Positions 13,045 through 41,032 of a stretch of DNA of 64,000 bases are shown one piece after another. The position numbers were made by a program, and so were the translations under genes. Location of the stretch: the NCBI RefSeq assembly GCF_023923225.1, contig NZ_CP099489.1:1054001-1118000 (forward strand). Direction: 5' to 3'. This DNA comes from Ornithinimicrobium faecis. GTDB taxonomy: Bacteria > Actinomycetota > Actinomycetes > Actinomycetales > Dermatophilaceae. The notes below the pieces were generated by a model. That model had not been told where the DNA came from. It saw nothing but the letters and a program-made list of their open reading frames with translations, and made no database searches. The stretch's first letter is position 1. Each line of letters begins with the position of its first letter.

Positions 13045-13108
13045 CCCCCCGCAAAATGATAAAGGTTTCGCACGCCCTCAGCGCCTTTTGATAGAGGTTT
13101 CGCACGCC
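13045..13108. repeat. Dispersed repeat, half copy A (two units)
   Basis: Two tandem units on the minus strand (read on plus as CCCCCCGCAAAATGATAAAG..., then a unit ending GGTTTCGCACGCC). The C-tract starts 4 bp after the flavin reductase stop codon. It shares the GTRCGARACC core and the A/T-rich spacer with copies at 15.7, 23.5, 28.7 and 40.9 kb. Only one arm of the palindrome is present. Confidence 0.85.
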
Positions 13109-13170
13109 TGCGTTGGCGACTCGCGCACGCGATCCGCGCGTGCACGGCAGTTTGAGACCTGAAGCGACCG

Positions 13171-13276
13171 CAGCGTGCAGCCAAACAGGCAAGGTGACGA
13201 TCTCCCGGCGTGACCAGGTCGCTGACCTGCGGCTTTGCTCGAGGGCCCCTGACATTGCCTGTTTGGCTGCACGCTG
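13171..13276. repeat. 22-bp perfect inverted repeat around a 62-bp centre
   Basis: Positions 13171-13192 (CAGCGTGCAG...AGGCAA) are exactly complementary to 13255-13276. The 62-bp centre contains a smaller hairpin, CAGGTCGCTGACCTG. No open frame here looks coding. The whole can fold into one long stem, so it could be a structured RNA, a cruciform site or the remains of a small mobile element. Confidence 0.7.
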
Positions 13277-13300
13277 ATCCTGGGGCGGGCCGGCAACGCT

Positions 13301-13330
13301 CAGCCGGCCCACGGCATACGGCTGGGTTTT
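13301..13330 (+). terminator. Rho-independent terminator candidate
   Basis: CAGCCG (13301-13306) pairs with CGGCTG (13319-13324), followed by GGTTTTGTTGTTG. It lies downstream of the flavin reductase unit and the inverted-repeat element, about 40 bp before the methyltransferase start. Confidence 0.5.
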
Positions 13331-13370
13331 GTTGTTGTGCAGGGCCGGTCGCGCAGGGCAGGGTGGCCGG

Positions 13371-14132
13371 GTGCGCGCTTTCGAGGACCTGGTTGCCGAG
13401 GCGACGGCGGCCGACGTCTCGGGGTGGGGCTTCGGATGGCTCGCGGGCAGGGCCACCGAGGAGCGCCCGCCCTGGGGTTATGCCCGCCTGCTGGCCGAGC
13501 ACTTGGCGCGGGTGCCGTCGGCCCTCGACGTGGACACCGGCGGTGGCGAGGTGGTCGACGAGGCGCCGGTCCTGCCGCCGCGGATGGTGGTCACCGAGAG
13601 CGGGTCACCCAACGTGGAGCGGGCGCGTGCTCGACTCGGGCCGCGCGGGGTGCACGTCGTGGAGACCGTCGCCGGGGAGCCGTTCCCGCTGCCGGACAAC
13701 GCTTTTGATCTGGTGACCTCCAGGCACCCGGTGCGTCCGGACTGGACGCAGATCCACCGGGTGCTCGTGCCGGGCGGACGCTATGTCGCCCAGCACGTTG
13801 GCCCGGAGTCGGCCCGTGAGTTGAGCGAGGCCTTCCTCGGGCCACTGCCGGACGGGGACGGGCGCGACCCGGAGCGCGAGGTTGCGGCTGCGCAGGACGC
13901 CGGGCTGAGCGTCGAGGACGTGCGCACGGCGCGGTGCCGCATGGAGCTCCACGACATCGGCGCGATAGTGTGGATCCTGCGCAAGTGCGTCTGGTGGGTG
14001 CCGGACTTCACCGTCGAGCGCTATCGCGACGTGCTCCTCGACCTGGATGCCGGGCTGCGGGCCGGCCGACCGTTCGTGGCGCACTCGACCCGCCACCTGA
14101 TCACGGCCACGAAACCGGCACGCCCGTCCTGA
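13371..14132 (+). CDS. SAM-dependent methyltransferase-like protein
   Basis: 253 residues. LDVDTGGGEV stands at the place of motif I (normally D-x-GCGxG), followed by NAFDLVTSRHP, then RVLVPGGRYVAQHVG, the post-motif III pattern of class I methyltransferases of the UbiE/Methyltransf_11 kind. Both the glycine loop and the acidic residue after strand 2 (VVTESGS) are recognisable but not textbook. The GTG at 13371 begins the homologous part; the upstream frame runs through the terminator-like hairpin. Substrate unknown. Confidence 0.7.
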   Translation: MRAFEDLVAEATAADVSGWGFGWLAGRATEERPPWGYARLLAEHLARVPSALDVDTGGGEVVDEAPVLPPRMVVTESGSPNVERARARLGPRGVHVVETVAGEPFPLPDNAFDLVTSRHPVRPDWTQIHRVLVPGGRYVAQHVGPESARELSEAFLGPLPDGDGRDPEREVAAAQDAGLSVEDVRTARCRMELHDIGAIVWILRKCVWWVPDFTVERYRDVLLDLDAGLRAGRPFVAHSTRHLITATKPARPS

Positions 14133-14155
14133 GGTGCCCGGGCCAGCGGCCGGTC

Positions 14156-14161
14156 TATGCT
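14156..14161 (+). promoter_or_regulatory. Possible -10 box of the xdh operon
   Basis: TATGCT in the 139-bp gap before xdhA, giving an expected start near 14168 and a 5' leader of about 100 nt. No convincing -35 box was found. Confidence 0.3.
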
Positions 14162-14271
14162 CGAAAGCACAGCACGGGTCGTCGTTCGCATGGACAACCG
14201 GCGGCCCACCGGTGCACGAACCATGCACCGCGCGCGACGGAGCGTGCGGCCACGGCCGGAGGGAGCGCTCG

Positions 14272-18262
<3,991 letters not shown>

Positions 18263-18263
<1 letters not shown>

Positions 18264-19105
18264 TGGACTGGTTGCGGGCACTGGCGCACCTGCGCGAGGA
18301 CGGACGCTCCGCGGTGCTGGTCACTGTCACGGCCGTGCGCGGGCATGCTCCGCGAGAGGCCGGCGCCAAGATGGTGGTCGCCGCTGAGGAGACGTGGGAC
18401 AGCATCGGCGGCGGCAATCTGGAGGCCAGCGCCGTGGCCCGAGCCAGAGAGCTGCTCGCGGCCGGGACCACCGGGCCGGAGCGCACTGATCTGTCGTTGC
18501 ACGAGCACGCTCCCACGACCTATGGCCGGCAGTGCTGCGGCGGTGAGGTCAGCCTGCTGTTCGAGCCGTTGCCTGCCCGTCCGGTGGTGGCGGTCTTCGG
18601 GCTGGGACACGTCGGCGCGGAGCTGGGGCGGATCCTGTCGAGGTTGCCGCTCGTGGTGCACCTGGTGGACAGCCGCCGGGGTCAGGTCGAGGCCCTGAAC
18701 GCCCTGGGCGTGCGTGATGGTCTCGCCGACGTTCAGATCACCCATGCGCCCGTCCCGGAGGTGGTGCTCGCGGACCTCCCGGCGCATGCCCACGTGCTGG
18801 TGATGACCCATGACCACGCCGAGGACCTCGTGCTCTGTGAGGCCGCACTGCGCCGCGGCGACCTCGGCTCGGTCGGGGTGATCGGCTCGTCGGCCAAGTG
18901 GCAGCGCTTCCGCAAGCGGCTGCTCGAGGCTGGTCACACCGAGGCCGCCATCTCGACGCTGACCAGCCCGATCGGGCTGCCCGACCTGCCGGGCAAGCAA
19001 CCAGCGGTGATCGCGATCAGTGTCGCGGCCGCGCTGGTGGGCACGCTGCAGCTCGATGCCGCACCTGCCGCTGCGATGGACTCGCCGGCGGACCTTCGCG
19101 GATGA
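18263..19105 (+). CDS. xdhC: XdhC-family molybdenum cofactor maturation protein
   Basis: 280 residues. The N-terminal XdhC/CoxI segment has VRGHAPREAGAKMVV, WDSIGGGNLE and a GRQCCGGEV motif. The C-terminal Rossmann domain follows (VAVFGLGHVGAEL, VMTHDHAEDL, GVIGSSAKWQRF). XdhC binds the molybdenum cofactor, promotes its sulfuration and inserts it into XdhB. Its start overlaps the xdhB stop by one base (TGATG), so the three genes form one coupled operon with no regulator inside. Confidence 0.9.
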
Positions 19106-19122
19106 GCGGCCGGTGGCGCGGA

Positions 19123-19128
19123 TAGCGT
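19123..19128 (+). promoter_or_regulatory. -10 box of leaderless HIT-protein transcript
   Basis: TAGCGT, 6 nt before the ATG at 19135. It lies just after the xdhC stop codon, so the HIT gene probably has its own promoter. Confidence 0.5.
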
Positions 19129-19134
19129 GTCGGG

Positions 19135-19551
19135 ATGAGCGCGCCCGACTGCATCTTCTGCACCCTGATCGCCGGTCGCGCACCGGTGAGCATCGTCGAG
19201 AGCGACGAGCATGTCGTGGCCTTCCTGGACGCCTTCCCGGTGGGACCGGGCCACGTGCTGGTGAGTCCGCGGCGGCACGTCGAGTCACTGAGCGAGCTGA
19301 CGGTCGAGGAGGGCGCTGCCCTGTTTGCCTCGGCCCGGCGTCTTGCCGGGAGGGTGCGCGAACGCCTCGCTCCAGCAGTCAACCTGCACCTGTCCGATGG
19401 GGCTGAGGCCGATCAGGAGGTGCCGCACGTGCACCTGCACGTCATCCCCCGGCACGCCGGTGACCAGGTGGTGCTCGACCTGCCGGGGACACCGCGCACC
19501 AGGCAGGACCTGGATGAGGTCGCTGCGGCGCTGACGGCGAGCCCGGACTGA
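19135..19551 (+). CDS. HIT family nucleotide hydrolase/transferase
   Basis: 138 residues. The histidine triad is HVHLHVI at 98-104, with His100 the expected nucleophile. CIFC at 6-9 plus histidines further on form the zinc site seen in Hint-like members. NLHLSDGAEADQEVPHVH replaces the usual N-x-G-x2-A-x-Q loop with a close variant. HIT proteins cleave AMP from phosphoramidates or dinucleotides. It is the last gene before a 330-bp gap. Confidence 0.88.
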   Translation: MSAPDCIFCTLIAGRAPVSIVESDEHVVAFLDAFPVGPGHVLVSPRRHVESLSELTVEEGAALFASARRLAGRVRERLAPAVNLHLSDGAEADQEVPHVHLHVIPRHAGDQVVLDLPGTPRTRQDLDEVAAALTASPD

Positions 19552-19879
19552 GCCGGAGCGCCCCGTGCGGTGGTGCTGAACCGGCGTGACCGATGCCGCG
19601 CTGGAGTGCAGGACACGCCGCAACGATGGGCGCACGGTGCACGACACGCAGGGGTGATCGCGACCGGCGGCGTAGGATCAGCGAGGCACCTGGCGGGCAG
19701 GCGTGGGGAGATAACAACTCGGCATCGATCCGGTCAGGAGTGCCAACCACACGCTCAGGTGACGCGTTTGCGTTAGGAGGGCACGGCATACTGCCACAGA
19801 CGCGCGAGCGTCCTGACACCCGTGCCAGCGCACCGTGAGCACGCCAGACCGACACCAGACGACCAGCAAGGGAAGCCCC
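19552..19879. other. 328-bp gap without a recognised gene
   Basis: No open frame with coding character. It contains possible -10 boxes at TAGGAT (near 19674) and CATACT (near 19787), the second as part of a GGCATAC motif. One of these may serve the VanW gene. No hairpin with a T-tail was seen after the HIT gene. Confidence 0.4.
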
Positions 19880-21592
19880 GTGGACGAACGACAGAGCCTG
19901 CCGGAGGAGCCGCAGCGCAACGAGTGGGTCGCCATCCTCGTGCGCACGTTGGTCGCCGTGTTGGTGCTGGGCGGAGGCTATTACTTCGCAGCGCAGTATC
20001 TCGGGGGACGCGTGCCCAACGGCACGCAGGTCGAAGGGATCGACATCGGTGGCCTGAGCCCCGAGGATGCGCGGGCCACGCTGGACGATCGCCTGGACGA
20101 CATGGCCACCGAACCGGTGACGATTGATGTCGAGGGCGACACCGTGCAGATCGCACCAGAGGACGCGGGGCTCGCCCTCGATCTGGACACCACGCTGGCA
20201 GGCATCACGGGCGTCAGCTATGACCCGTCGGTGCTCTGGGACCGAGTCGTCAACGAGGGGCAGGACCTGCCACTCGAGGTCACCGTGGACCGCGCCGACC
20301 TCGAGAAGGCCGTGCAGGGGGTGGCCCAGGACGTGGCCATCGAGCCCACCGAGGGTGAGGTCTGGCTCAACATGGGCGAGGTCAAGTCCACCGAGTCCGC
20401 GGACGGCCGCGAGCTCGACGTGCCTGCCACCAGCGACGCGGTGGAGGCTGTGTGGCCGCAGACGACCAAGGTGGACGGCGTGGTGACGGCCACCAAGCCG
20501 CAACTGGCCCAGGCCGAGATCGACCGCTTCGTCGGGGAGGTCGCCGGCCCCGCCGTCGCCGGCCCGATCACCGTCGAGGTGGACGGCGAGAAGTCGGAGA
20601 TCAGCACCAAGCAGATCGCCCGCCTGCTCACCATCACCGAGGGTGACGACCACACCCTGTCGCTGGACTTCGACGCCGAGGGCGTGCTCGAGATCGTCAG
20701 CGGTCAGCTGGAGGAGGCCACCGTCTCGCCGCAGAACGCGGGCGTGGTCCTCGACGGCGGGAGCCCCGTTGTCACCAGCGCTCGCGTGGGACAGGTCGTC
20801 GACGAAAAGGCGCTGCTCGAGGAGGTCAACAAGGCCATCAAGAAGGAGGGCGAGCACCGCGTCGCCAAGGTTGGCACCACCGAGGTGGAGCCCGACATCA
20901 CGGACAAGGACGCGGCGGCGTGGGACTTCTCGCAGATGGCGACCTTCCGCAGCACCTTCCCGGGTGGAGCGTCCAACGCCGACCGCACCGAGAACATCCG
21001 GGTCGGACTGGGGCACCTCAACGGCACTGTCGTCATGCCCGGGGACTCCTTCAGCCTGTCCAACGAGCTGGCTCCCATCACGCATGAGCGTGGATACGTC
21101 GACGCCGGTGTGATCAGCGGTGGCCGCCTGGTCAAGGGAATCGGAGGTGGCCTCTCGCAGGTCTCCACCACGGTGCTCAACACCGCCTGGAACGCCGGTG
21201 TCCAACTCGATGAGTTCCACCCGCACTCCTACTACATCGAGCGCTATCCGGTCGGCAAGGAGGCCACGATCGCGGTCGGTCAGCTGGACAACCGGTGGAC
21301 CAATGACACCGACACCCCGGTCGTGATCCAGACCTGGATCGAGGGCAGCGACATCGTGATGACCTTCTGGGGTGACAAGAAGTACGACGTCGACACGGTC
21401 ACCGGCCAGCGCACCAACTACGTGCAGCCTGACGTCAAGACCGATGACAGCGAGAACTGCCTGCCGCAGAGCCCCCAGCAGGGCTTCACCATCACGGTGA
21501 CGCGCATCCTGTCCCAGTCGGGCAGTGAGGCTGACCGGCAGTCCTACACCACGACATACCACCCCTCGGACCAGGTCACGTGCACCGGATGA
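19880..21592 (+). CDS. VanW family protein with YoaR-like repeats, membrane-anchored
   Basis: About 570 residues. A polar head of about 15 residues is followed by one membrane helix (VAILVRTLVAVLVLGGGYYF). Two repeats of the YoaR-like putative peptidoglycan-binding domain follow (VNGTQVEGIDIGGLSPEDA-like starts). The VanW domain begins near FSLSNELAPI and includes GGRLVKGIGGGLSQVSTT and ERYPVGKEATI. It is probably an extracytoplasmic cell-wall protein; the VanW function is not established. The GTG at 19880 has AAGGGAAG just before it. A GTG at 19835 in the same frame would add 15 residues and lacks such a site. Confidence 0.82.
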   Translation: MDERQSLPEEPQRNEWVAILVRTLVAVLVLGGGYYFAAQYLGGRVPNGTQVEGIDIGGLSPEDARATLDDRLDDMATEPVTIDVEGDTVQIAPEDAGLALDLDTTLAGITGVSYDPSVLWDRVVNEGQDLPLEVTVDRADLEKAVQGVAQDVAIEPTEGEVWLNMGEVKSTESADGRELDVPATSDAVEAVWPQTTKVDGVVTATKPQLAQAEIDRFVGEVAGPAVAGPITVEVDGEKSEISTKQIARLLTITEGDDHTLSLDFDAEGVLEIVSGQLEEATVSPQNAGVVLDGGSPVVTSARVGQVVDEKALLEEVNKAIKKEGEHRVAKVGTTEVEPDITDKDAAAWDFSQMATFRSTFPGGASNADRTENIRVGLGHLNGTVVMPGDSFSLSNELAPITHERGYVDAGVISGGRLVKGIGGGLSQVSTTVLNTAWNAGVQLDEFHPHSYYIERYPVGKEATIAVGQLDNRWTNDTDTPVVIQTWIEGSDIVMTFWGDKKYDVDTVTGQRTNYVQPDVKTDDSENCLPQSPQQGFTITVTRILSQSGSEADRQSYTTTYHPSDQVTCTG

Positions 21593-21719
21593 CCGGCGTG
21601 ATACCGGCCACAGAAGCCGGGGGCGGCTTACCGCTCTGCCCTGCCGCGCGGCATACTAGGCAGTGGCCTGTCCCGTGCCCGGAACGCCACGTCACCAATA
21701 GCAGGATCAGGAGCAGTTC

Positions 21720-22046: not shown

Positions 22047-22145
22047 GCATCCCCGGATTCGGGCAGGCGCTAGAGGGCCTCTGCTCGGTCAACGACAAGC
22101 GGCGCTCCCGGCCCTAGGGCGTGCCGACCCCGAGCAGGAGGACAT

Positions 22146-23432
<1,287 letters not shown>

Positions 23433-23451: not shown

Positions 23452-23482
23452 CCCCCGTTCCGGTTCGCCGGAGCGGGGGTTT
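23452..23482 (+). terminator. Rho-independent terminator of gltA
   Basis: A 12-bp stem with one G-U pair (CCCCCGTTCCGG / CCGGAGCGGGGG), a TTCG tetraloop and a short TTT tail, 20 bp after the gltA stop codon. Confidence 0.85.
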
Positions 23483-23491
23483 GTGCGATCT

Positions 23492-23621
23492 CCCCCCAAT
23501 TTTCATAAAGGTCTCGTACGTCGGACCCGGATCTTGATACAGGTCTCGCACGGGCAGGCCGTACGAGACCTCTATCAATTTCCGGGGGAGGCGTGCGAAA
23601 CCTTTATCTTTTTGCGGGGGG
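23492..23621. repeat. Dispersed repeat, full 130-bp palindrome C
   Basis: Two reverse units (from CCCCCCAATTTTCATAAAGG to TCTCGCACGG), a short GCAGG centre, and two forward units (from CCGTACGAGACC to TTTTTGCGGGGGG). It fills the gap between convergent genes: the gltA terminator on one side and the stop codon of the next minus-strand gene 7 bp away on the other. Confidence 0.9.
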
Positions 23622-23628
23622 AGGGGGG

Positions 23629-24501
23629 TCAGCTGGTCGCGACGGTGATCGTCACTGTGGTGCCGTCGGCCGGGGTATCGGTGGATCGCCAGGTGAGCGG
23701 GTCGTCGTGCCGGTCCCAGGCGCGGTCAGCGACCTGCACCCCCACGATGTCCTGCACCTCCGCGTGGGCCACCGCCCAACTGGCCACCGCCCATGCCTGG
23801 TCGGCGCCCGAGGCCTGCAGCGTGACGGTGTCGTCGTCGGCGCTGCCCTGCCCGGAGAAGGTCCGCTCCGCCTTGGCGAGCACGTCCTGGGCCGAGCCGG
23901 CGCCCTCCACCGCGTCCAGGCGGCAGGCGAGACCGGCGTGGGTCTGACCGACCAGAGCTGAGGCCATCACCCGGGCCTCGCCCTCGTGATCGGCATAGGC
24001 GTCCGGATAGCGGCTGCGCTGGACCTCCTGCGCGATCTCGGTGACCACCCACTCCGACCAGTCCGGGATCGCCTCCAGGGCGTCCAGGAAGGTGTTGGTG
24101 GCATAGACGGGGTCGGTCACCTCCTCGGGAGTGCCCCAACCCTGGCTCGGCCGCTGCTGGAACAGACCGAGGGAGTCGGCGTCCCCATAATTGAGGTTGC
24201 GGAGCTTGGACTCCTGGATCGCGGTGGCCAGGGCGACCGTGGCGGCCTTGGGCGGCAGGCCACGCTCCAGGGTGATCATGCTGATGGTCGCTGCGTTGGC
24301 CGCCTGCTCAGGTGTGAGTGACTCGCTGGCGTCGCCGACCGTGAACTCACAGGTCGGGCTGCGGAACTCGTCGATCAGCCAGCGCGCGCCATAGGCCCCG
24401 CCGAGGATGGCCACAGCGGTGACGGCAGCCAGGGTCAGCCATGCGCGCCGCCGTGGCCGACGGGCCTCGGCGGCCGGGTCATCCTGGCCGGCCGGGGTCA
24501 T
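23629..24501 (-). CDS. Membrane-anchored lytic-transglycosylase-like protein
   Basis: 290 residues. A basic N-terminus (RRPRRRAWLTLAAVTAVAIL) forms a signal-anchor helix; the rest should lie outside. ALATAIQESKLRNLNYGDAD followed by SLGLFQQRPSQGWG is the core seen in actinobacterial proteins related to lysozyme-like/transglycosylase folds, with Glu in AIQES as the likely catalytic acid. The C-terminal half is Ala-rich and unassigned. It is convergent with gltA and divergent from dapE. Annotation as hypothetical would also be fair; enzymatic activity is inferred from a short motif. Confidence 0.65.
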   Translation of the reverse strand: MTPAGQDDPAAEARRPRRRAWLTLAAVTAVAILGGAYGARWLIDEFRSPTCEFTVGDASESLTPEQAANAATISMITLERGLPPKAATVALATAIQESKLRNLNYGDADSLGLFQQRPSQGWGTPEEVTDPVYATNTFLDALEAIPDWSEWVVTEIAQEVQRSRYPDAYADHEGEARVMASALVGQTHAGLACRLDAVEGAGSAQDVLAKAERTFSGQGSADDDTVTLQASGADQAWAVASWAVAHAEVQDIVGVQVADRAWDRHDDPLTWRSTDTPADGTTVTITVATS

Positions 24502-28671: not shown

Positions 28672-28733
28672 CGTACGAAACCTCTATCAAAAGACGGGGA
28701 GGGCGTGCGAGACCTTTATCTTTTTGCGGGGGG
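28672..28733. repeat. Dispersed repeat, half copy D (two units)
   Basis: Forward units 28672-28703 (CGTACGAAACCTCTATCAAA...) and 28704-28733 (CGTGCGAGACCTTTATC, ending GCGGGGGG). The G-tract touches the stop codon of the enoyl-CoA hydratase gene on the other strand. Confidence 0.9.
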
Positions 28734-29552
28734 TCAGCGGCCCTCGAAGACGGGCTTCTCCTTGGCGAGGAAGGCGGCCACAGCGGTCTTGTGGTCCGCG
28801 GAGGCGCCGGTGCTGGCCATCAGCTCGGCCTCGTGCTCCAGGGACTCGGCCAACTCGTGGGTCGCGGAGAAGGCGACGGCCCGCCGCACGGCACCGTAGG
28901 CCTTGGTGGGCCCGGCCGCGAGGGTCTGGGCGAGCTCACGCACGTGCGCCTCGAAGTCCTCGTCCGCGACGACCTGGGTGGCCAGGCCCAGCTCGAGGGC
29001 CTCGTCGGCCTTGACCGTGCGCGGCAGCAGGAGCAGCTCCTTGGCCTTGGCCGCGCCGATCAGCCGGGGCAGGTGATAGGACGCGCCGGAGTCGCACGAC
29101 AGCGCGATCCCCGTGAAGGCCGTGTTGAATCCCGCGGACGCCGCCACGATGCGCAGGTCGGCCGCGAAGGTGAACGATGCGCCGGCACCAGCCGCGATCC
29201 CGTTGACTGCTGCGATCACCGGCTTGTCCATCGTGGCCAGCAGCTGGACGATGGGGTTGTAGTGGGCCCGAACCGTGCCAGAGAGCGCTGCGTTGCCCTC
29301 AGCAGAGGCGTCCGCGTCCGTGGGGGCCTGCAGGTCGTTGATGTCCTGACCGACACAGAACGCCCGCCCGGTGCCGGTCAGCACCACCGCCCGCACCGAC
29401 TCGTCCTCGGCGACCTCTCGCAGCGCGGCGAGCAGGGCCTCCTTGGTGGCGGTGTTGAGGGAGTTCATCGCCTCGGGGCGATTGAGGCGCACGACGGCGA
29501 CGCCCCCGTCGCGCTCGATCAGGACAGGCGTGGTGGTGTCGGTCTGACTCAT
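28734..29552 (-). CDS. Enoyl-CoA hydratase/isomerase family protein
   Basis: 272 residues of the crotonase fold. The oxyanion-hole segments are GTGRAFCVGQDINDL and NGIAAGAGASFTFAADLRI. The usual second catalytic Glu is replaced by Asp in ALSCDSGASYHLPRLIG, the arrangement of PaaG-type isomerases (Asp in place of Glu). That, and the overlapping PaaX gene, suggests 1,2-epoxyphenylacetyl-CoA isomerase (PaaG) or a related ring-cleavage-pathway enzyme. No other paa genes are in the window, so a general fatty-acid role stays possible. Its ATG overlaps the paaX stop by 4 bp. Confidence 0.85.
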   Translation of the reverse strand: MSQTDTTTPVLIERDGGVAVVRLNRPEAMNSLNTATKEALLAALREVAEDESVRAVVLTGTGRAFCVGQDINDLQAPTDADASAEGNAALSGTVRAHYNPIVQLLATMDKPVIAAVNGIAAGAGASFTFAADLRIVAASAGFNTAFTGIALSCDSGASYHLPRLIGAAKAKELLLLPRTVKADEALELGLATQVVADEDFEAHVRELAQTLAAGPTKAYGAVRRAVAFSATHELAESLEHEAELMASTGASADHKTAVAAFLAKEKPVFEGR

Positions 29553-31326: not shown

Positions 31327-31432
31327 ATGCGCCGCGGACGCTCAGGAACCTCCCAGCCTGGACTGCCACTATTGGTGGACGGCGAACTGCGCAGCAGGGG
31401 TGCGGTCGCCTTGCCTCGAGATGGAGGACACC

Positions 31433-32014: not shown

Positions 32015-32059
32015 GGGTCCCGTTCGGCCCCGGCGGGCTGATCAGGCAGAATCAGGCGC

Positions 32060-33508: not shown

Positions 33509-33514
33509 GCCACG

Positions 33515-33949
33515 ATGCTCAACCTCGGTGGTGGTGAGCTGGTCCTGCTGATCGTCCTGGCGCTGATCATCCTGGGGCCGGACAAACTGCCTGGGTATGC
33601 CGCGAAGCTGGGTCAGTTTGTCCGCTCGGCCCGGGACATGGCTGAGGGAGCCAAGACTCACCTGCGCGATGAGATGGGTCCCGGGTTCGACGACGTCGAC
33701 TGGAGCGCTCTGGACCCGCGGCAGTATGACCCGCGGCGCATCGTGCGCGATGCCCTGTCCGCCCCGGCGGCGGGTGCGGCAGCAGGCGGTGCCGTCAGTG
33801 GGGGTGACCTGGGCGGGGGTGGGGCTCAGGAGACCGCTGCTGGTCGGGCCGCGAACGAGGCCGCGATCGCCGGCGGAGGTGTGCCGCGCCGCTCGTTCCA
33901 GGGCTTCGACCCCAGTGCCCCGGTCCCGTGGGACGTCGACGCCACCTGA
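33515..33949 (+). CDS. tatB: Sec-independent translocase subunit TatB
   Basis: 144 residues. LNLGGGELVLLIVLALIILGPDKLP is the short membrane helix with the conserved E and GP-(D/E)-KLP hinge of TatB/TatA. An amphipathic helix (YAAKLGQFVRSARDMAEGAK) and a Gly/Ala-rich tail follow. The MGPGFDDVDWSALDPRQYDPRR segment is typical of actinobacterial TatB. With TatC (not in this window) it recognises twin-arginine signal peptides of folded exported proteins. It lies 6 bp after htrA. Confidence 0.9.
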   Translation: MLNLGGGELVLLIVLALIILGPDKLPGYAAKLGQFVRSARDMAEGAKTHLRDEMGPGFDDVDWSALDPRQYDPRRIVRDALSAPAAGAAAGGAVSGGDLGGGGAQETAAGRAANEAAIAGGGVPRRSFQGFDPSAPVPWDVDAT

Positions 33950-33968
33950 GGGTCGTGCCCTCCTGAGG

Positions 33969-35102
33969 TCAGCGGCTCGTCGGAGTGATGCCGAGCTTGC
34001 GGCCAGCCAAACCGCGACCCCGGTGCGCCAGCTGGCGGGCGATGCCGCGCAGGGCGGTCGCCGCGGGGGAGTCCGGGGTGCCGATCACGGCGGGGACGCC
34101 GGAGTCGCCGCCCTCGCGCAGGGTGGTGTCCAGCGGGATCTGACCCAGCAGCGGGACCTCGGCGCCGATCGAGCGGGTGAGGCTCTCGGCGACGGCCTGG
34201 CCACCGCCGGAGCCAAAGATCTCCTGGCGGGTGCCGTCGGGCAGCTCGAGCCAGGACATGTTCTCGATGACACCGACGACGCGCTGGTGGGTCTGCAGGG
34301 CGATCGCACCGGCCCGCTCGGCCACCTCGGCCGCAGCCTGCTGCGGGGTGGTCACCACGAGGAGCTCGGAGTTGGGCAGCAACTGGGCGGTGGTGATGGC
34401 GATGTCGCCGGTGCCCGGCGGCAGGTCGAGCAGCAGGACGTCGATGTCGCCCCAGAAGACGTCGGAGAGGAACTGCTGCATCGCGCGGTGCAGCATCGGG
34501 CCCCGCCAGACGACCGGCTGGTTGCCCGGCACGAACATGCCGATCGAGATGACCTTCACGTCGTGCGCCAGGGGCGGCAGGATCATGTCGTCGACCTGGG
34601 TCGGCTGCTGCTCGACGCCGAGCATGCGCGGCACGGAGAAGCCATAGATGTCCGAGTCGACCACGCCGACCCGCAGACCCTCGGCCGCCATCGCGGCCGC
34701 CAGGTTGACGGTGACCGAGGACTTGCCGACGCCACCCTTGCCGGAGGCCACGGCATACACCCGTGTCAGGGTGTCTGGTCGGGCGAAGGGGATCTCCTTC
34801 TCCGGGGCGCCACCACGCAGCTGCGAGCGCAGGTTGCCCCGCTGCTCATCGCTCATCACGCCGAGCTGGACGCGCACGTCCGTGACGCCAGCGACCGAGG
34901 CCACGGCCGCCGTGACGTTCTTGGTGATGGTCTCCTTCATGGGACATCCGGGCACCGTCAGCAGGATGGTGGTGTTGACCAGCCCTGCCTCGTCGATGTC
35001 GACTCCCTCGACCATGCCGAGCTCGGTGATGGGCTTGCGGATCTCGGGGTCATCGACCGTCGCCAGCGCGGCGTGGATGGCATCAAGGGAGGGTGCAGAC
35101 AT
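33969..35102 (-). CDS. mrp: Mrp/NBP35 family Fe-S cluster carrier ATPase
   Basis: 377 residues. An N-terminal MIP18/DUF59 domain (1-85; ITELGMVEGVDI, TVPGCPMKE) is fused to a P-loop domain with the deviant Walker A GKGGVGKS at 121-128, then DSDIYGFSVPRMLG and DVLLLDLPPGTGD. Mrp/ApbC proteins hold and deliver 4Fe-4S clusters to target enzymes, and several are encoded here (ferredoxin, XdhA, AdnA). The CxxC usually placed near the C-terminal third is not obvious in this sequence. Convergent with tatB (19 bp gap). Confidence 0.93.
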   Translation of the reverse strand: MSAPSLDAIHAALATVDDPEIRKPITELGMVEGVDIDEAGLVNTTILLTVPGCPMKETITKNVTAAVASVAGVTDVRVQLGVMSDEQRGNLRSQLRGGAPEKEIPFARPDTLTRVYAVASGKGGVGKSSVTVNLAAAMAAEGLRVGVVDSDIYGFSVPRMLGVEQQPTQVDDMILPPLAHDVKVISIGMFVPGNQPVVWRGPMLHRAMQQFLSDVFWGDIDVLLLDLPPGTGDIAITTAQLLPNSELLVVTTPQQAAAEVAERAGAIALQTHQRVVGVIENMSWLELPDGTRQEIFGSGGGQAVAESLTRSIGAEVPLLGQIPLDTTLREGGDSGVPAVIGTPDSPAATALRGIARQLAHRGRGLAGRKLGITPTSR

Positions 35103-35159
35103 GCCTCCATCGTAGGCTGCTCGCCCGAACGAACGATGCCGCGGGTGGGGTGATCTGCG

Positions 35160-35774
35160 CTACGGCAGGGATCGCTCGTCAGTGTGCTGATCCGGGTCGG
35201 CCTCGGGGGCCCTGGCCCGCATCTCCAGCCCGCGCTCCTCCATCTCGTCCAGCAGGCTGCGCAGCTCGCTGCGCACGAAGTCACGGGTCGCGGCGTCACG
35301 CATGGCAATCCGCAGCGAGACCACCTCGCGGGTGAGGAACTCCGTGTCGGCCAGGTTGCGCTCGTCGCGGGTGCGGTCCTGCTCGATGACCACCTTGTCG
35401 CGGTCGGCCTGCCGGTTCTGCGCGAGCAGGATCAGGGGCGCGGCATAGGACGCCTGCAGGCTCAGCATCAGCGTCAGGAAGATGAAGGCATAGGGGTCGA
35501 ATCGCAGGTGCTCGGGGGCCAGGAAGTTCCAGACGAGCCAGACGGCGACGAAGACGGTCATGTAGCCCAGGAACCGGGCGGTGCCCATGAACCGTGCGAA
35601 CCCCTCGGCGAACTGGCCGAAGGCGTCGGGGTCCATCTTGGGCCTGACGATGAGCTGTCGACGACTGGCCAGCGGCTGGTCGAGGCGGTCGGTGCGTCGC
35701 TCCACCTGACGCTCGACGGCCCGGTCGGCGAGCCGGTCGCGTCGAGGCGGTGTGGTCGGGTTCGGCTCAGACAC
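35160..35774 (-). CDS. DUF1003 membrane protein
   Basis: 204 residues. Two membrane helices (TARFLGYMTVFVAVWLVWNF and AFIFLTLMLSLQASYAAPLI) are joined by the DUF1003 motif LRFDPYAFIFL and followed by LLAQNRQADRDKV. A long charged C-terminal helix (VSLRIAMRDAATRDFVRSEL) follows. The function of the family is unknown. The GTG start overlaps the MgtE-like gene by 8 bp, so the two products may act together in the membrane (Rv1231c/Rv1232c neighbourhood in M. tuberculosis). Confidence 0.88.
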   Translation of the reverse strand: MSEPNPTTPPRRDRLADRAVERQVERRTDRLDQPLASRRQLIVRPKMDPDAFGQFAEGFARFMGTARFLGYMTVFVAVWLVWNFLAPEHLRFDPYAFIFLTLMLSLQASYAAPLILLAQNRQADRDKVVIEQDRTRDERNLADTEFLTREVVSLRIAMRDAATRDFVRSELRSLLDEMEERGLEMRARAPEADPDQHTDERSLP

Positions 35775-37155
35775 GCGCTGCTCCCTCGGCTGTGCTGGAC
35801 GGTCCGCTGCTCGACGGTCCGCGGCTCGACGGTCGGCTGCTCGACGGCGGGGAGGCGACCGGGATCGCGCCGGTCTCGTCGTGGCGCTCCTCGCGCCAGT
35901 CCTCGGGCAGCATGTGGTCGAGCACGTCGTCCACGGTCACCGCACCGAGCAACCGGCCCTCCTCATCGGTCACCGGCACAGCGACCATGTTGTAGTTCGC
36001 CATCAGGCGGGTGATCGTCTCCAGCGAGGCATCGGCGGGGACCGGCTCGAAGTCGCGATCCACGATGCCACCGATCGCCTGGTGCGGCGGCTCGCGCAGC
36101 AGGCGCTGGAGGTGCACGATGCCGATGAGGCGCCCGGTCGGCGTCTCCAGGGGCGGGCGGCACACATAGACCAGCGAGGCAACGGCGGGGGAGAGCTCCA
36201 CGCGCCGCACCATGGCCAGGGCCTCGGCGATGCTGGCCTGCGGGCCGAGGATCACCGGCTCCGGCGTCATCATGCCGCCGGCCGTGTCCTGGTCATAGGC
36301 GAGCAGGCGGCGCAGGGGCTCGGCCTCGTCCGGCTCCATCATCTGGAGCAACTCCTCGACCGTGTCGGCCGGCAACTCGGCCAGCAGGTCGGTCGCGTCA
36401 TCGGGCTCCATGACCTCGAGGACGTCCGCCGCCCGCTCGGCGGTCAGACCGGTCAGGATCTCGATCCGGTCGTCGTCGGGCAGCTCCTCGAGGACGTCGG
36501 CGAGCATCTCGTCGTCCATCGCGTCGGTCACCTCGGCCCGGCGCTTGGGAGTCAGGTCATGGATCGCGTCGGCGAGGTCGGCGGGCTTGCGGTCCTCCAG
36601 GCTCTCCAGCAGGGCGTGGGCGCCCTGTTCGCCGCCTGCCAGGTGCAGGCCCTGCACGTCCTCCACCGGCACCAGGACGGTCTCCCCGCGGGGCCGGCGC
36701 AGCCGGAGGCCGGGCCGCGAGCGGGTCGGGGCACCGCGCCGACAGAACACCCGGGTGACCAGCCAGTCGCGACTGGGCTGCAGCTCGAGCGCGAGGTCCT
36801 CCACCACCGCCGGCTCGGGACCGCTGTCCCGGTCCACGACGATCTGCACGCTCCGGTCGAACACCTCGGCGACGACGCTGGTCTCGCCGGCGCGCTGCTC
36901 AAACCGGCGCATGTTGACCAGGCCGGTGGTGATCACCTGCCCGGCGTCGATCGTGGTCACGCGAGTGATCGGCAGGAAGACGCGTTTGCGGCCCGGCACC
37001 TCGACGACCAGGCCGATGGCCCGAGGGCCGCGGACGCGCACCCGAGTCGGCATGGTCAGCACCACGTCGCGGACGCGTCCGACCTCGTCTCCGAGGGGGT
37101 CGAAGACGCTCAGCCCGATCAACCGGGCAACGAAGACTCGGGGGTTGCTGCTCAC
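35767..37155 (-). CDS. MgtE N-terminal/CBS domain protein with PRC-barrel start
   Basis: 462 residues. A PRC-barrel-like part (about 1-180, VFVARLIGLSVFDPLGDEVG) leads into the MgtE N-terminal superhelix (DLADAIHDL, LADVLEELPDDDRIEIL, ADVLEVMEPDDATDLL), then two CBS domains (about 290-430, YDQDTAGGMMTPEPVI, AVPVTDEEGRLLGAVTVDDV). The Mg2+ channel helices of MgtE are missing, so this is a soluble sensor, perhaps of Mg2+ or nucleotides, not a transporter. The GTG at 37155 sits 6 nt behind a -10 box. The C-terminal 20 residues come from four 15-bp repeats. Confidence 0.88.
   Translation of the reverse strand: MSSNPRVFVARLIGLSVFDPLGDEVGRVRDVVLTMPTRVRVRGPRAIGLVVEVPGRKRVFLPITRVTTIDAGQVITTGLVNMRRFEQRAGETSVVAEVFDRSVQIVVDRDSGPEPAVVEDLALELQPSRDWLVTRVFCRRGAPTRSRPGLRLRRPRGETVLVPVEDVQGLHLAGGEQGAHALLESLEDRKPADLADAIHDLTPKRRAEVTDAMDDEMLADVLEELPDDDRIEILTGLTAERAADVLEVMEPDDATDLLAELPADTVEELLQMMEPDEAEPLRRLLAYDQDTAGGMMTPEPVILGPQASIAEALAMVRRVELSPAVASLVYVCRPPLETPTGRLIGIVHLQRLLREPPHQAIGGIVDRDFEPVPADASLETITRLMANYNMVAVPVTDEEGRLLGAVTVDDVLDHMLPEDWREERHDETGAIPVASPPSSSRPSSRGPSSSGPSSTAEGAARV
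35793..35852. repeat. Four 15-bp tandem repeats in the 3' end of the MgtE-like gene
   Basis: TGCTGGACGGTCCGC, TGCTCGACGGTCCGC, GGCTCGACGGTCGGC and TGCTCGACGGCGGGG in a row (plus-strand reading). They encode a Ser/Pro-rich tail (SSRPSSRGPSSSGPSS) and are in frame, so copy number can change without breaking the protein. Confidence 0.75.
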
Positions 37156-37161
37156 TCGGGC

Positions 37162-37167
37162 AGGATA
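37162..37167 (-). promoter_or_regulatory. -10 box of leaderless MgtE-like transcript
   Basis: TATCCT on the minus strand, 6 nt before the GTG at 37155. Confidence 0.5.
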
Positions 37168-37281
37168 GCGACTAGCCACCCGTGTGACCGACCTCACGAG
37201 AAGGGTGGGAATCTTCTGAGTGGGCCACTCGCTGTCACAGGTGACGGTTCAACTATGCAATGAAGGAGCACGAACACCCTG

Positions 37282-37404
37282 ATGGGTTTCCAGACCGGCA
37301 GCACCTACGACTACGCCACGCTTCGCGCCTATCGTCATCGGACTCCGTCCGACATCGCACGCAAGGCCCTCAAGCCGCGCAAGCGACTCTTCGGACTCCG
37401 CTGA
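37282..37404 (+). CDS. Small basic protein, 40 residues, unannotated type
   Basis: ATG 37282 to TGA 37402-37404. The product starts MGFQTGSTYDYATLRAYRHR and ends in ALKPRKRLFGLR, with 11 Arg/Lys in 40 residues. Third codon positions are mostly G or C, as in real genes here. AAGGAG lies 13 nt upstream, a long spacing, behind a TATGCA box. A strong hairpin 22 bp after the stop codon (37427-37460) suggests a separate transcript. I do not recognise a family. It could be a ribosome- or RNA-binding peptide. An overlapping ATG at 37260 in another frame is a less likely alternative. Confidence 0.5.
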   Translation: MGFQTGSTYDYATLRAYRHRTPSDIARKALKPRKRLFGLR

Positions 37405-37426
37405 TCACCATCAGCACCGCAGACCC

Positions 37427-37460
37427 GTGGCCCGGACGCTCAGCGAGCGTGCCGGGCCAC
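37427..37460 (+). terminator. Hairpin after the 40-residue gene
   Basis: GTGGCCCGGACGCTC pairs with GAGCGTGCCGGGCCAC (15 bp, one bulged G, loop AGC). There is no T-run beyond ATT. It lies between the small gene and the GSP17M-like gene, 20 bp before the latter. Confidence 0.6.
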
Positions 37461-37480
37461 ATTAGTGTCAGGATGGCCTT

Positions 37481-38155
37481 GTGACCAGCATGCCCAGCAC
37501 CGGACGTGGCCGCATCACCGGCCTCACGCTCGACTACCCGATGTCCCTGGGGGTCTTCGAGAAATACGAGGACGCGCAAAAGGCGGTCGACTTCCTGTCA
37601 GACCGCTCGTTCCCGGTGGAAAACTGCATGATCGTGGGGACCGATCTGCGTCAGGTCGAGCGGGTCACCGGTCGCCTCACGATGGGGCGCGTCGCGCTCG
37701 CCGGGCTGGTCACCGGCATCTGGATGGGCCTGTTCGTCGGTCTGATCTTCGCCCTCTTCGCGCCGAGTGGAGACGCCTTCACGACCGTCCTGTGGTCGAT
37801 GCTCTTCGGTGCGGTCTTCGCCCTCGTGTGGGCTCTGCTGGGCCACGCCCTCACCCGTGGACAGCGTGACTTCACCTCGGTCTCGCAGGTCATCGCGACC
37901 CGCTATGAGGTGCTGACCGAGCACAAGTTCGCCCAACAGGCCCGCGACCTGCTCGTTGAGATGCCGGGTGGTCCGGGCACGCTCGGCTATCGCCCGCCGA
38001 CCCAGCAGCCGCCCTTTCAGTCCCCGCCGCAGGGGGCCCCGCAGTCTCCGCCGCAAGGCGCTCCGCAGCAGCCACCGACCGCCGAGCAGCCCGCGCCGCA
38101 GGGCGCCCAGCAGCCAGAGGCCACCGAGCAACCCCCGCGCGACACGCAGAGCTGA
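37481..38155 (+). CDS. General stress protein 17M-like membrane protein
   Basis: 224 residues. LGVFEKYEDAQKAVDFLSDRSFPVENCMIVG is the YflT/GSP17M-like domain. Two membrane helices follow (LAGLVTGIWMGLFVGLIFALF and LWSMLFGAVFALVWALLGHAL), then a Pro/Gln-rich tail built on repeats of PPQGAPQ. It resembles Rv1234 in size, domain and position. The role in stress is inferred from the family name. The GTG at 37481 has AGGATGG before it; an ATG at 37490 is possible. Convergent with the MFS gene, with only 6 bp between stop codons. Confidence 0.8.
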   Translation: MTSMPSTGRGRITGLTLDYPMSLGVFEKYEDAQKAVDFLSDRSFPVENCMIVGTDLRQVERVTGRLTMGRVALAGLVTGIWMGLFVGLIFALFAPSGDAFTTVLWSMLFGAVFALVWALLGHALTRGQRDFTSVSQVIATRYEVLTEHKFAQQARDLLVEMPGGPGTLGYRPPTQQPPFQSPPQGAPQSPPQGAPQQPPTAEQPAPQGAQQPEATEQPPRDTQS

Positions 38156-38161
38156 GCACCG

Positions 38162-39577
38162 TTAGACAGGTGCCTCCTGCGGGACGTCGCGTCCCGGCAC
38201 GCGCTGGGCGATCAGCGCACCCACACCGAGGCCGGCGACCGCGAGCAGAGCGGCGATGATGAACGGGTCGCCCGAGTGCAGGGCGGGAGCGAACCCGATC
38301 CCGACATACAGGGCCACCCCGCTGGCGCCACCGAGTTGGTCCGCGGCGCGTTGCACGCCGGACGCGATCCCCGCGTCCTCGTCGGTCGTGCCACCGACCG
38401 CGACGTATTGCAGCCCGACGATGCCGAAGCCCATCCCGGCAGCGATCAGCAGCATCGCTGGGAGCAGCCACAGTGCCCCTGCATCGAGGAAGGCCACCAG
38501 GGCCACCACCACCATGGCGCAGGCGGCAGAGCCCAGACCGGTCAGCACGCAGGTGCGCGCTCCCCACCTCGACAGGAACCGAGGGACCAGGACGGACGCA
38601 AGGATCAGGGCGGCGGCCAGCGGCAGCATGAGGAGGCCGGAGCCGAGCGGTCCGATGCCCAGGTGGTCCTGCAGATAGAACGTGAACAGCAGGAACGAGG
38701 TCGACAGTGCGGCACTGAGCAGCACCGTCGTCAGGTTCGCGCTCACGCGAGCGCGATCGGCGAAGAAGCCCAGGGGCACCAGCGGGTTTGCCGAGGCTGC
38801 CTCGACCCGCACGAACCCGACGCCGGCCAACACTGCGCCCACCAGAGCCGCCGCGCTCAGCCACAGGCTCGCGCCGGCCTCACCGGCCTCGACCACGCCG
38901 AAGGTGAACAACAGCGGGCAGGCGGTGAGCAGGGCCGCGCCGGGCAGGTCCAACCGGCCCGGACGGCGCCTCGCGGGCCGATCGTTGTCGAGCAGGAAGA
39001 GGGCCGCGATGACCACGACCAGGATGAACGGCACGGAGATCAGAAAGATCCATCGCCAGCCCAGATAGGCGGTGATGATGCCTGACATCGCGAACCCGAC
39101 GACCAGCCCGCAGCTGGCGACCGCGGCCCACACGCTCAGGGCACGTGATCGTTGCGGACCCTCGGGGAACAGCAACACGATCGTGGCCATCGCGGCCGGC
39201 AACGCGATGGCCTCACCCACCCCCTGCAGGAGGCGGGCGACCACGAGGATCTCGAACGAGGGTGCCAGCCCGGCCAACAGGGAGGCCGCACCGAACACCG
39301 TCGTGCCGACCAGCAGGGTGCGCCGGCGCCCCCACAGGTCGCCGAGGCGCCCACCGAGCATCAGCAGACCACCGCCAGTGATGGTGTAGCCGACCACGAC
39401 CCAGGTCAGGGCGTTGCCGCTGACCCCGAAGGTCGTGCCGATCGAGGGCAGGGCGATGTTGACCACGGTCACGTCGACCGCGATGAAGAACTGCAGCATC
39501 GACATCGCGCACAGCAACAGCAGCGCGCGGGTCGAGGTCGGGCTGTGCCCGGGGGAGGGGGAACTGCCTGAACGCAT
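38162..39577 (-). CDS. MFS transporter, DHA2-like (EmrB/QacA) family
   Basis: 471 residues with 14 predicted helices. Motif A-like GGRLGDLWGRRRTLLVG, the antiporter motif C-like region (LVVGFAMSGIITAYLGWRWIF) and the opening MLQFFIAVDVTVVNIALPSIG (motif D1) are typical of 14-helix drug:H+ antiporters. The substrate is not predictable. The ATG has GGAGCACC upstream. No regulator is adjacent; the 289-bp gap to the divergent oxidoreductase gene holds its promoter. Confidence 0.88.
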   Translation of the reverse strand: MRSGSSPSPGHSPTSTRALLLLCAMSMLQFFIAVDVTVVNIALPSIGTTFGVSGNALTWVVVGYTITGGGLLMLGGRLGDLWGRRRTLLVGTTVFGAASLLAGLAPSFEILVVARLLQGVGEAIALPAAMATIVLLFPEGPQRSRALSVWAAVASCGLVVGFAMSGIITAYLGWRWIFLISVPFILVVVIAALFLLDNDRPARRRPGRLDLPGAALLTACPLLFTFGVVEAGEAGASLWLSAAALVGAVLAGVGFVRVEAASANPLVPLGFFADRARVSANLTTVLLSAALSTSFLLFTFYLQDHLGIGPLGSGLLMLPLAAALILASVLVPRFLSRWGARTCVLTGLGSAACAMVVVALVAFLDAGALWLLPAMLLIAAGMGFGIVGLQYVAVGGTTDEDAGIASGVQRAADQLGGASGVALYVGIGFAPALHSGDPFIIAALLAVAGLGVGALIAQRVPGRDVPQEAPV

Positions 39578-39866
39578 CAGTGGTGCTCCGTTGCTCAGAG
39601 AGGTTTCCGAGCAGCACGAGAAGGTGCCGCCCCGGTCTGGTCACGAAGCGGCAGGACGATTCAGGAGTGGTGCTGTGACGCGTCCCGCCGCTAGCGGGAC
39701 ACCTTGGTCACTGCCGCGCAGGCGGCCGAGCACGATGCGGCTGACATGACACCAAGGCTAACAGCGGTGCACGGGCTGAGTCATGGGCCTTTCGACCGAG
39801 GCGACCACGGCCGCGGGCCGAGGTGAGCCACGGCATACGATCGGCTCTCTGGGTGTTGACCCGACT
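39578..39866. other. Divergent intergenic region, 289 bp
   Basis: Between the MFS gene and the flavin-dependent oxidoreductase gene. It contains a GGCATACGAT stretch near 39833 that may be a -10 region for the rightward gene. A loose inverted repeat (CCTTGGTCA near 39703 and TGACACCAAGG near 39750) could be an operator. The open frames here are out of register with any recognised protein. Confidence 0.35.
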
Positions 39867-40886
39867 GTGAAGAAGATCGGGTTCCTGTCCTTCGGTCACT
39901 GGACCGACTCCCCGCACTCGGCTGTGCGCAGCGCCTCCGACGCGCTGCTGCAGTCGATCGAGCTGGCCGTCGCGGCCGAGGAGATCGGCGCCGACGGTGC
40001 CTACTTCCGGGTGCACCACTTTGCCCAGCAGCTCGCCTCGCCCTTCCCGCTGCTCGCGGCCGTCGGTGCGCGGACGAGCCGCATCGAGATCGGCACCGGC
40101 GTGATCGACATGCGCTACGAGAACCCCCTCTACATGGCCGAGGACGCCGGCGCTGCCGACCTGATCTCTGGTGGCCGACTGCAGTTGGGCATCAGCCGCG
40201 GATCGCCCGAGCAGGTGATCAAGGGCTATGAGCACCTCGGCCATGTGCCCGCGGACGGGGAGACCGACGCGGACCTGGCCCGTCGGCACACGGCCCGCTT
40301 CCTCGACGTGCTCGACGGGGAGGGCTTCGCCGAGCCCAACCCCAGTCCGATGTTCCCCAACCCGCCCGGGCTGCTGCGCATCGAGCCGCACTCACCCGGC
40401 CTGCGGCGCCGCATCTGGTGGGGTGCCGGGTCGCGCGCGACCGCGCAGCGGACGGCGCAGCAGGGGATGAACCTGATGAGCTCCACCCTGCTCACGGAGG
40501 ACACCGGGGTGCCTTTCCACCAGCTCCAGGCCGAGCAGATCCAGGTCTTCCGTGATGCCTGGGCCGGCGCCGGGCACGACTGGACTCCGCAGGTGTCCGT
40601 GAGCCGCAGCATCTTCCCGCTGGTCAACGAGATGGATCACCAGTTCTTCGGTTTGCAGACCCGCAGCCAGGACCAGGTCGGTCGCCTCGAGGGTGGGCTG
40701 GCTCGGTTTGGCAAGACGTATGCCGCGGAGCCGGACTCCCTGATCGCTCAGCTCGCGCAGGACGAGGCGATCGCGGCGGCGGACACGCTGCTGCTGACGG
40801 TGCCCAACCAGCTGGGCGTCGACTACAACGCCCACATCCTCGACAGCGTCGTGCGGCACGTGGCGCCGGGGCTCGGCTGGCGCTGA
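39867..40886 (+). CDS. LLM class flavin-dependent oxidoreductase
   Basis: 339 residues of the bacterial luciferase-like fold (KKIGFLSFGHWTDSP start, GADGAYFRVHHFAQQ, RIEIGTGVIDMRYENPLYMAEDAG, GRLQLGISRGSPEQVI). The FMN- or F420-dependent reaction and substrate are unknown. The GTG at 39867 begins the conserved part; an in-frame ATG at 39783 would add 28 residues that do not look homologous. It ends 16 bp before a 130-bp palindromic repeat that fills the gap to the convergent aminopeptidase gene. Confidence 0.85.
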   Translation: MKKIGFLSFGHWTDSPHSAVRSASDALLQSIELAVAAEEIGADGAYFRVHHFAQQLASPFPLLAAVGARTSRIEIGTGVIDMRYENPLYMAEDAGAADLISGGRLQLGISRGSPEQVIKGYEHLGHVPADGETDADLARRHTARFLDVLDGEGFAEPNPSPMFPNPPGLLRIEPHSPGLRRRIWWGAGSRATAQRTAQQGMNLMSSTLLTEDTGVPFHQLQAEQIQVFRDAWAGAGHDWTPQVSVSRSIFPLVNEMDHQFFGLQTRSQDQVGRLEGGLARFGKTYAAEPDSLIAQLAQDEAIAAADTLLLTVPNQLGVDYNAHILDSVVRHVAPGLGWR

Positions 40887-40902
40887 GGGCAGCGGACCGG
40901 TT

Positions 40903-41032
40903 CCCCCGCAAAAAGATAAAGGTTTCGCACGGTTCTCCCGGATCTTCGTAGAGGTCTCGCACGCCTAACCTGTACGAGACCGCTATGAAAAGGCGGGGTC
41001 GGTGTACGAAACCTTTATCTTTTTGCGGGGGG
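40903..41032. repeat. Dispersed repeat, full 130-bp palindrome E
   Basis: Reverse units (CCCCCGCAAAAAGATAAAGG..., then a unit ending TCTCGCACG), centre CCTAACCT, and forward units (GTACGAGACCGCTATG..., then GTACGAAACCTTTATC ending GCGGGGGG). It has the same 130-bp length as copy C. The G-tract abuts the aminopeptidase stop codon (41033-41035). Confidence 0.9.

Follow-up and report, generated by a model that had tools for sequence, protein, structure and literature searches.

What are the short repeats that recur at gene ends in Ornithinimicrobium faecis, and what might read them? The question arises from a stretch of 64,000 nucleotides (contig NZ_CP099489.1, positions 1,054,001 to 1,118,000 of the forward strand; below, the window), in which five loci carry tandem copies of a 32-bp unit. 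A sequence-only reading of the window took them for a new family of 130-bp palindromes moved in trans, in the manner of miniature inverted-repeat transposable elements (MITEs) or repetitive extragenic palindromic (REP) elements. The loci and their units were described correctly: 14 of the 16 window matches to GTRCGARACCTYTATC with up to 3 mismatches fall inside the five loci, the other two (48091 and 62194) being isolated with 3 mismatches each, and 100 shuffles of the window gave a mean of 1.07 matches and at most 4. The family had also been taken for one not recognised before; no Rfam family matches the window at gathering score, and a search limited to open-access literature found no description of it. 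As the main idea, however, transposition of a palindrome in trans gives way to another description, in which tandem units form a directed array and each palindrome arises where two such arrays meet between convergent genes. We see an even chance that these are arrays of binding sites, mainly at gene 3′ ends, for a putative sequence-specific DNA-binding protein whose specificity drifts.

Directed tandem arrays at gene ends

The genome of the window (G000) is one contig of 4.62 Mb, and we call its arrays and motif "own" to tell them from those of related genomes. Across this genome, GTRCGARACCTNTAYS with at most 1 mismatch has 221 matches (117+104; reversed control 4, 2+2) and CGARACCTYTATC at the same threshold has 161 (85+76; reversed control 8, 3+5), and the five loci turn out to be a small part of a genome-wide set, as expected of the multi-copy family that had been proposed. 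Scanned stretches yielded 70 own arrays, of which 45 have two units, 18 have three units and 7 have four; the pairs that had been described as the form of the element are what the five loci carry, with units 32 bp apart, but 25 of the 70 arrays have three or four units. A wider pattern gave 72 arrays and 11 further ones were read later, so about 83, of 2-4 direct units each, have been seen in the fetched stretches of a genome that was not read whole.

In each unit a conserved core is followed by an A/T tract of 4-5 bp, which may be of either strand, and then by an end rich in G; in outer units this takes the form of YGTRCGARACCTYTATC, then 4-5 A/T bases, then GCGGG and the G-rich end. In a sequence logo of the 70 arrays the outer unit starts YGTRCGA and ends GCGGG(G). 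These 70 outer units were found by a motif allowing 3 mismatches anywhere, which makes the distribution of mismatches informative and the overall similarity not: positions 0, 3, 4, 5, 7, 8 and 9 are 100% invariant, positions 2 and 6 are exclusively A or G, C or T fills position 11 in nearly every unit, and G and C are absent from positions 16-19, where A and T are both used. The spacing between units is 32 bp in 79 of 102 intervals, 31 bp in 22 and 33 bp in 1, and a period of 31-32 bp is about three helical turns. At the place where the last unit reads AAAAT or TTTTT, the inner (first) one often reads AAAAG. Position 20 is G in 25/60 first units of own arrays and 1/60 last units, and in the related genomes G130 (6/12), G110 (5/12), G111 (2/6) and G107 (2/5) this G likewise occurs in first units and in no last unit; a further relative, G128, is without this tendency (0/4 first, 1/4 last). 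That an A-tract and a T-tract are both accepted speaks for recognition of DNA rather than RNA and, taken with the purine-only positions and the three-turn phasing, would fit DNA read from one face by a protein.

The arrays could instead act as RNA, each unit junction being an intrinsic terminator, that is, a hairpin followed by U residues. Some G130 and G107 units could, by eye, pair C-rich with G-rich stretches ahead of TTTTG, and folding relative to shuffles gives a mean z of -1.79 for 5 arrays of G107, -0.62 for 12 of G130 and -0.30 for 12 of G110. The dominant G000 motif, however, is unable to pair in this way, and for 30 own arrays the mean z is +0.68 when folded in the direction of the gene and +0.10 on the strand of the array. 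These values do not favour RNA structure in G000, and with an A/T tract that comes in both orientations we hold intrinsic termination to be very improbable.

Placement and orientation are biased together. With genes predicted by a home-made codon-usage gene caller, and over 109 arrays from five genomes (among them a few pairs open to doubt, one of these in L213), the outer, G-rich end lies -25 to +40 bp from the stop of a gene reading toward the array in 72 cases (G000 46/70, G130 11/16, G110 10/16, G111 4/6, G107 1/1), against 12 of 109 in which the inner end is equally close to the stop of an incoming gene. The stop codon is often within the outer unit or directly against it. Among the 65 own arrays outside predicted genes, 29 occupy convergent junctions and another 22 lie in codirectional junctions with the outer end toward the incoming gene, and the 58 junctions of the window, taken as background, include 12 convergent and 12 divergent ones. 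Convergent and divergent junctions hold 6 and 0 of 13 arrays in G110 (background 44 and 44 of 282 junctions), 10 and 2 of 15 in G130 (background 57 and 60 of 369) and 3 and 0 of 6 in G111. This orientation toward incoming transcription suggests a barrier, an insulator or a topological role.

One clade, several dialects

Searches with the own motif gave the impression of a species-specific family. Exact matches number 97 units in G000 and 1 each in 3 of 185 other family genomes, and an own-type pair pattern matches G000 alone among 396 order genomes. In the genome_contigs collection (84,980 species, possibly leaving out G000 itself) the pair pattern finds 7 stretches, of which only L080, from Ornithinimicrobium cavernae, reads as an array. 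L080 and a part of G107 are identical over 1,500 bp, and as G107 falls into the same genus as the window, the window belongs to Ornithinimicrobium in the sense of GTDB; the family that NCBI gives for it is Ornithinimicrobiaceae. We dropped the species-specific reading because generic patterns find arrays in sister species, and the family does, as had been suspected, extend to relatives. GGTTTYGN{24,26}GGTTTYG, run over whole genomes, has 113 matches in G128, 106 in G110, 67 in G130, 61 in G111 and 48 in G000, low counts in G121 (6), G107 (4), G126 (4), G119 (2) and G129 (2), and none in the other 21 of the 31 genus genomes, with a reversed control of 0 in all 31. When the sequences are read, the A/T tract is missing from the listed matches of G119, G129 and G126 and from 5 of the 6 of G121. 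Over 186 family genomes the generic pair pattern matches 37; at least the matches listed outside the genus are, by eye, without an A/T tract at the right place, and the reversed control likewise matches several of those genomes.

Generic scans of fetched stretches (reversed control 0 or 1 per genome) list 5 arrays in 480 kb of G107, one of them (L253) not array-like, 12 in 400 kb of G110, 12 in 420 kb of G130, 6 in 140 kb of G111 and 4 in 24 kb of selected G128 loci, which are counts and not densities, since motif hits were the reason for including 5 of 20 G110 stretches, 3 of 7 G111 stretches and all of the G128 loci. The same scans found no arrays in G122 (220 kb), G114 (200 kb), G106 (140 kb) or 168 kb of loci, most of which belong to other members of the genus. 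An early idea that G107 had lost the system was given up when its arrays turned up in a dialect peculiar to it. In a one-gene tree of 14 species, G121 not among them, a single branch sets the six array species apart (support 88/87, present in 85% of bootstrap trees). On this evidence from sequence, the arrays occur within one clade of the genus Ornithinimicrobium only.

Within the clade, the core is written differently from species to species. The dialect of G000 is GTRCGARACCT (the GTRCGARACCTYTATC core), that of G110 and G111 mostly CnACGAAACCnC, position 0 being C, position 6 A and position 10 any of several bases, that of G130 mostly CnRCAAAACC, with A at position 4 (CAAAACC), and that of G107 GGTCCGAACCTCCC; G128 is mixed (core-profile units: G000 136, G110 29, G111 15, G130 24, G107 11, G128 11). 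Ten site groups are common to at least two species, some of them reached through loci picked for motif hits, and the window sites A, B and D described below are among the shared sites. For six site groups, taken from the window and from stretches that are contiguous or syntenic, core mismatches per position are 0.272 between different sites of the same species (64 comparisons) versus 0.364 between the same site in different species (44), and this difference was reached by 1 of 5000 within-site label permutations. In a larger set the values are 0.236 for same species, 0.334 for same site and 0.362 for neither. Such dialects would not be explained by a conserved reader (gyrase, Rho, polymerase); a drifting one would explain them.

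Concerted change might also come about with no drifting protein at all, through gene conversion that homogenises dispersed repeats. That cores cluster by species agrees with this, and identical stretches such as the 28 bases of GTGCGAGACCTTTATCTTTTTGCGGGGG, present in several copies (335035, 1561580, 1692151 and 1836448 among others), are perhaps long enough for it. Conversion tracts should, however, bring the spacer along, and yet the cores are fixed and the spacers remain diverse; in outer units, moreover, core positions 2 and 6 vary only A for G. We consider gene conversion improbable.

The nearest precedent for the dialects is found in the DNA uptake sequences (DUS) of Neisseriaceae, which are described in PMC3630211 as species dialects of one motif, read by ComP, with inverted pairs at terminators. 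If the arrays were signals of this kind, biased DNA uptake would have spread them. DUS, however, are short, number in the thousands and are dispersed also within genes, whereas here about 220 units, those read lying mostly in phased tandem arrays at gene ends, make up the set, and an uptake role seems the least credible of the explanations we weighed.

One own-dialect array in G107 (L050; L096/L124) stands apart, with flanks 95% identical to G000 over 474 bp, against 75-92% for the other G107 flanks seen, and to judge by this identity it likely arrived by recent transfer.

The five window sites and the case for mobility

Three of the five sites are shared with sister species. Site A (13045..13106, minus strand) is a 2-unit array about 5 bp past the stop of a flavin-reductase-like gene (12486-13040), toward which its G-rich end is turned. 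Orthologous counterparts of it are present in G130 (L198) and, on the minus strand of L212, in G110; no array was seen at this position in G107 and G111. Site B (15724..15788, plus strand) is a 2-unit array within the 3′ end of a CO/xanthine-dehydrogenase-type FeS/FAD open reading frame (ORF; 14134-15795), of which it forms the C-terminal end, and its G-rich end GGGGGAGGAG resembles a Shine-Dalgarno site for the gene that follows (ATG 15792); G110, G111 and G130 have orthologous arrays and G107 a single degraded unit. Site D (28672..28733, plus strand), again a 2-unit array, abuts the stop of an enoyl-CoA hydratase-like gene (28734-29552, minus strand), with orthologous arrays in G110, G111 and G130 and a degraded one in G107.

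The other two are double sites. The left array of site C (23490..23552, minus strand) lies downstream of a citrate synthase-like gene (stop 23432), beyond a hairpin recognised by eye at 23452-23479, and the right array (23560..23624, plus strand) faces the stop of a minus-strand gene (23629-24501). G107, G110, G111 and G130 are without an array on the left side, and G107, G110 and G130 without one on the right. At site E, the left array (40903..40963, minus strand) lies 16 bp past the stop of a luciferase-like monooxygenase gene (39783-40886) and the right array (40971..41032, plus strand) abuts the stop of an M24 aminopeptidase-P-like gene (41033-42556, minus strand). G130 has here only the right-hand array, two 32-bp units with a different core, in the dialect of that species, whose outer end abuts the same stop codon; in G110 and G107 the two stop codons are separated by 3 bp and 13 bp. 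The 130-bp palindromes noticed at first are real insofar as C (23492-23621) and E (40903-41032) hold two pairs back to back between convergent genes, but these double arrays are imperfect inverted repeats (74% match of E to its own reverse strand over 129 bp) and do not define the structure of the family. Among outgroups, the position of site E holds other palindromic repeats in L172, L173 and L175 (two with a GCAGCAGGTGTTCCTCTG hairpin, the third with a hairpin related to it) and a GTCGAATTCGACC element in L163 and L167.

From these comparisons, C and E look like lineage-specific gains, for which some mobility or duplication is needed, and to that extent movement in trans survives. The comparison of filled and empty flanks that it invited could be made at E, the single site compared base by base: G110 and G107 supply empty sites, but no target site duplication is evident.

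The main rival explanation takes the arrays for a nonautonomous mobile family resembling REPs, MITEs or mycobacterial interspersed repetitive units (MIRUs), inserted by a transposase at gene ends and tolerated there with no host role. We think this unlikely, though not far-fetched, and view with equal doubt its account of the dialects, which would reflect the current master copies of each species. The many copies and the lineage-specific sites C and E are what such a family would leave, and the 130-bp double arrays look like small inverted-repeat elements. REPs, too, lie at gene ends in extragenic DNA, and PMC3733652 describes families that differ between species, two large ones being tagged GTAG or CGTC, of which the GTAG ones often supply the stop codon and are linked to REP-associated tyrosine transposases (RAYTs). 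Like REPs, bacterial interspersed mosaic elements and REPINs (REP doublets forming hairpins), the arrays are multi-copy, extragenic and near gene 3′ ends; but REPs are palindromic by definition (PMC12306157), whereas the arrays consist of direct, asymmetric, non-palindromic units of 31-32 bp in helical spacing, have no GTAG- or CGTC-tagged palindrome, and in part occupy sites common to several species, A, B and D included, while the motif differs. Nor would invariant, contact-like positions and a preferred orientation be expected of inert copies. The REP-associated transposase that the sequence-only reading pointed to did not appear: the Y1/RAYT family (PF01797) has no member in any of the 31 genus genomes, in a search confined to Y1 with other transposase families not searched; 5 of 14 control genomes, E. 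coli among them, were positive. With that result, and 30 own arrays that fold no better than shuffles, a RAYT/REPIN reading was dropped.

Facing arrays might also be the ends of a transposon with cargo, an idea abandoned after a Pfam scan of four ORFs lying between such arrays: one is COX15/CtaA (L058), one an HTH_Tnp_1 fragment (L055), and two have no match above cut-off (L038, with weak YtxH/DUF5403 hits below cut-offs, and L070, with no family). The other six proteins in the scan are neighbours, with matches to GntR, none, methylmalonyl-CoA mutase, AMP-binding, LGT and Cys/Met metabolism.

MIRUs are tandem direct repeats at gene junctions in actinobacteria that touch stop and start codons, and in these respects the arrays resemble them. 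MIRU units are longer than 31-32 bp, and the arrays differ in their bias of orientation toward the stop and in their dialects, a comparison made by description.

A putative drifting reader

If the core is read by a protein, as we infer, units spaced by three turns would place successive binding sites on one face of the DNA, with each G-rich end pointing at the neighbouring stop codon and two arrays standing back to back between some convergent genes. Cooperative binding could then produce a directional barrier at the ends of transcription units, which is probably the role of the arrays, whether as a roadblock to RNA polymerase, an insulator or a supercoil sink. Drift in the specificity of the reader, with its array sites following, would give rise to the species dialects. 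Protein roadblocks to RNA polymerase, LacI among them, have reportedly been studied with single bound obstacles; they share the proposed working principle, whereas the arrays stand genome-wide at gene ends. Direct TAACTGA repeats in marine Beggiatoaceae are said to form abundant intergenic sets with a proposed regulatory role, but theirs is a 7-base motif with a proposed post-transcriptional role and no link to the Ornithinimicrobium arrays.

Several observations weigh against a drifting reader at gene ends. No reader protein was found, and the one candidate located between facing arrays does not follow them in its distribution: this orphan 132-aa HTH_Tnp_1 protein (L055, 2739-3137, minus strand), flanked by two outward-facing arrays, retrieves itself and a 34% paralogue in G000, has a weak match elsewhere in G120 only, lacks a close relative among the 30 other genomes of the genus, and was rejected as the reader. 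Own arrays face away from the incoming gene in codirectional junctions in 10 of 65 cases, lie in divergent junctions in 4 of 65 and fall within predicted genes in 5 of 70. The left array of site C sits past a hairpin that G130 and G107 keep, by eye, with no array following. About 83 arrays against roughly 4,000 genes (a figure extrapolated from 59 genes called in 64 kb) would cap about 2% of genes, so that the arrays are no general terminator. As to the dialects, at least two G000 arrays (L285, L286) are written in a different one, and the uniformity of the own dialect is partly a search effect, because the own motif served to detect most of the own arrays; of 21 listed among 48 generic pair matches in G000, 17 are of the own dialect, 2 of another and 2 unrelated. 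Finally, spacers keep no memory of their site (mismatches 0.401 for same site, 0.415 for same species and 0.419 for neither), which also favours a mobile family and means that shared sites may have been gained anew at the same gene end.

Taken further, the drifting-reader explanation would give this Ornithinimicrobium clade a gene-end punctuation of its own, in which phased arrays are read by a dedicated, fast-evolving predicted protein whose specificity would differ between species, and in which the arrays, shared sites included, would be rewritten in concert and act as directional barriers at the ends of transcription units; we put this forward tentatively, as somewhat short of an even chance. 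With the same reserve, the rewritten set would amount to around a hundred arrays per genome and form a bacterial counterpart of systems in which reader and motif drift together. What is at hand is a bacterial case of a genome-wide motif that differs between sister species at the same sites, and the closely related genomes with their visible clade boundary allow two questions to be tested, namely which factor recognises repeats at gene ends and how some hundred sites change together with the DNA-binding specificity that they serve. If the barrier role holds, transcription units could be ended or insulated in a sequence-specific manner, beside hairpin and Rho termination.

Other tandem repeats of similar length were met along the way. 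The window itself has a separate 32-bp tandem repeat, CAGTCGGTGAGAGTCGCGACGGTCGTCCCGCT, at 45893-45960. G126 carries 32-bp tandem arrays of GTGCGAAACCCCTAGCAACGTGGTGGGGAAGG without an A/T tract (L297, C7 near 1608; L298, C10 near 1446), one of which ends at TCA, possibly a stop codon; going by their sequence, these are perhaps a distant branch of the same system. GC-rich tandem repeats of 31-33 bp, several with CGCGCTCGGT, recur across several species of the genus (G000 905080-905218; G121 C8 32452-32586; L260 14579-14700; L193 17811-17990) and apparently make up a second tandem family.

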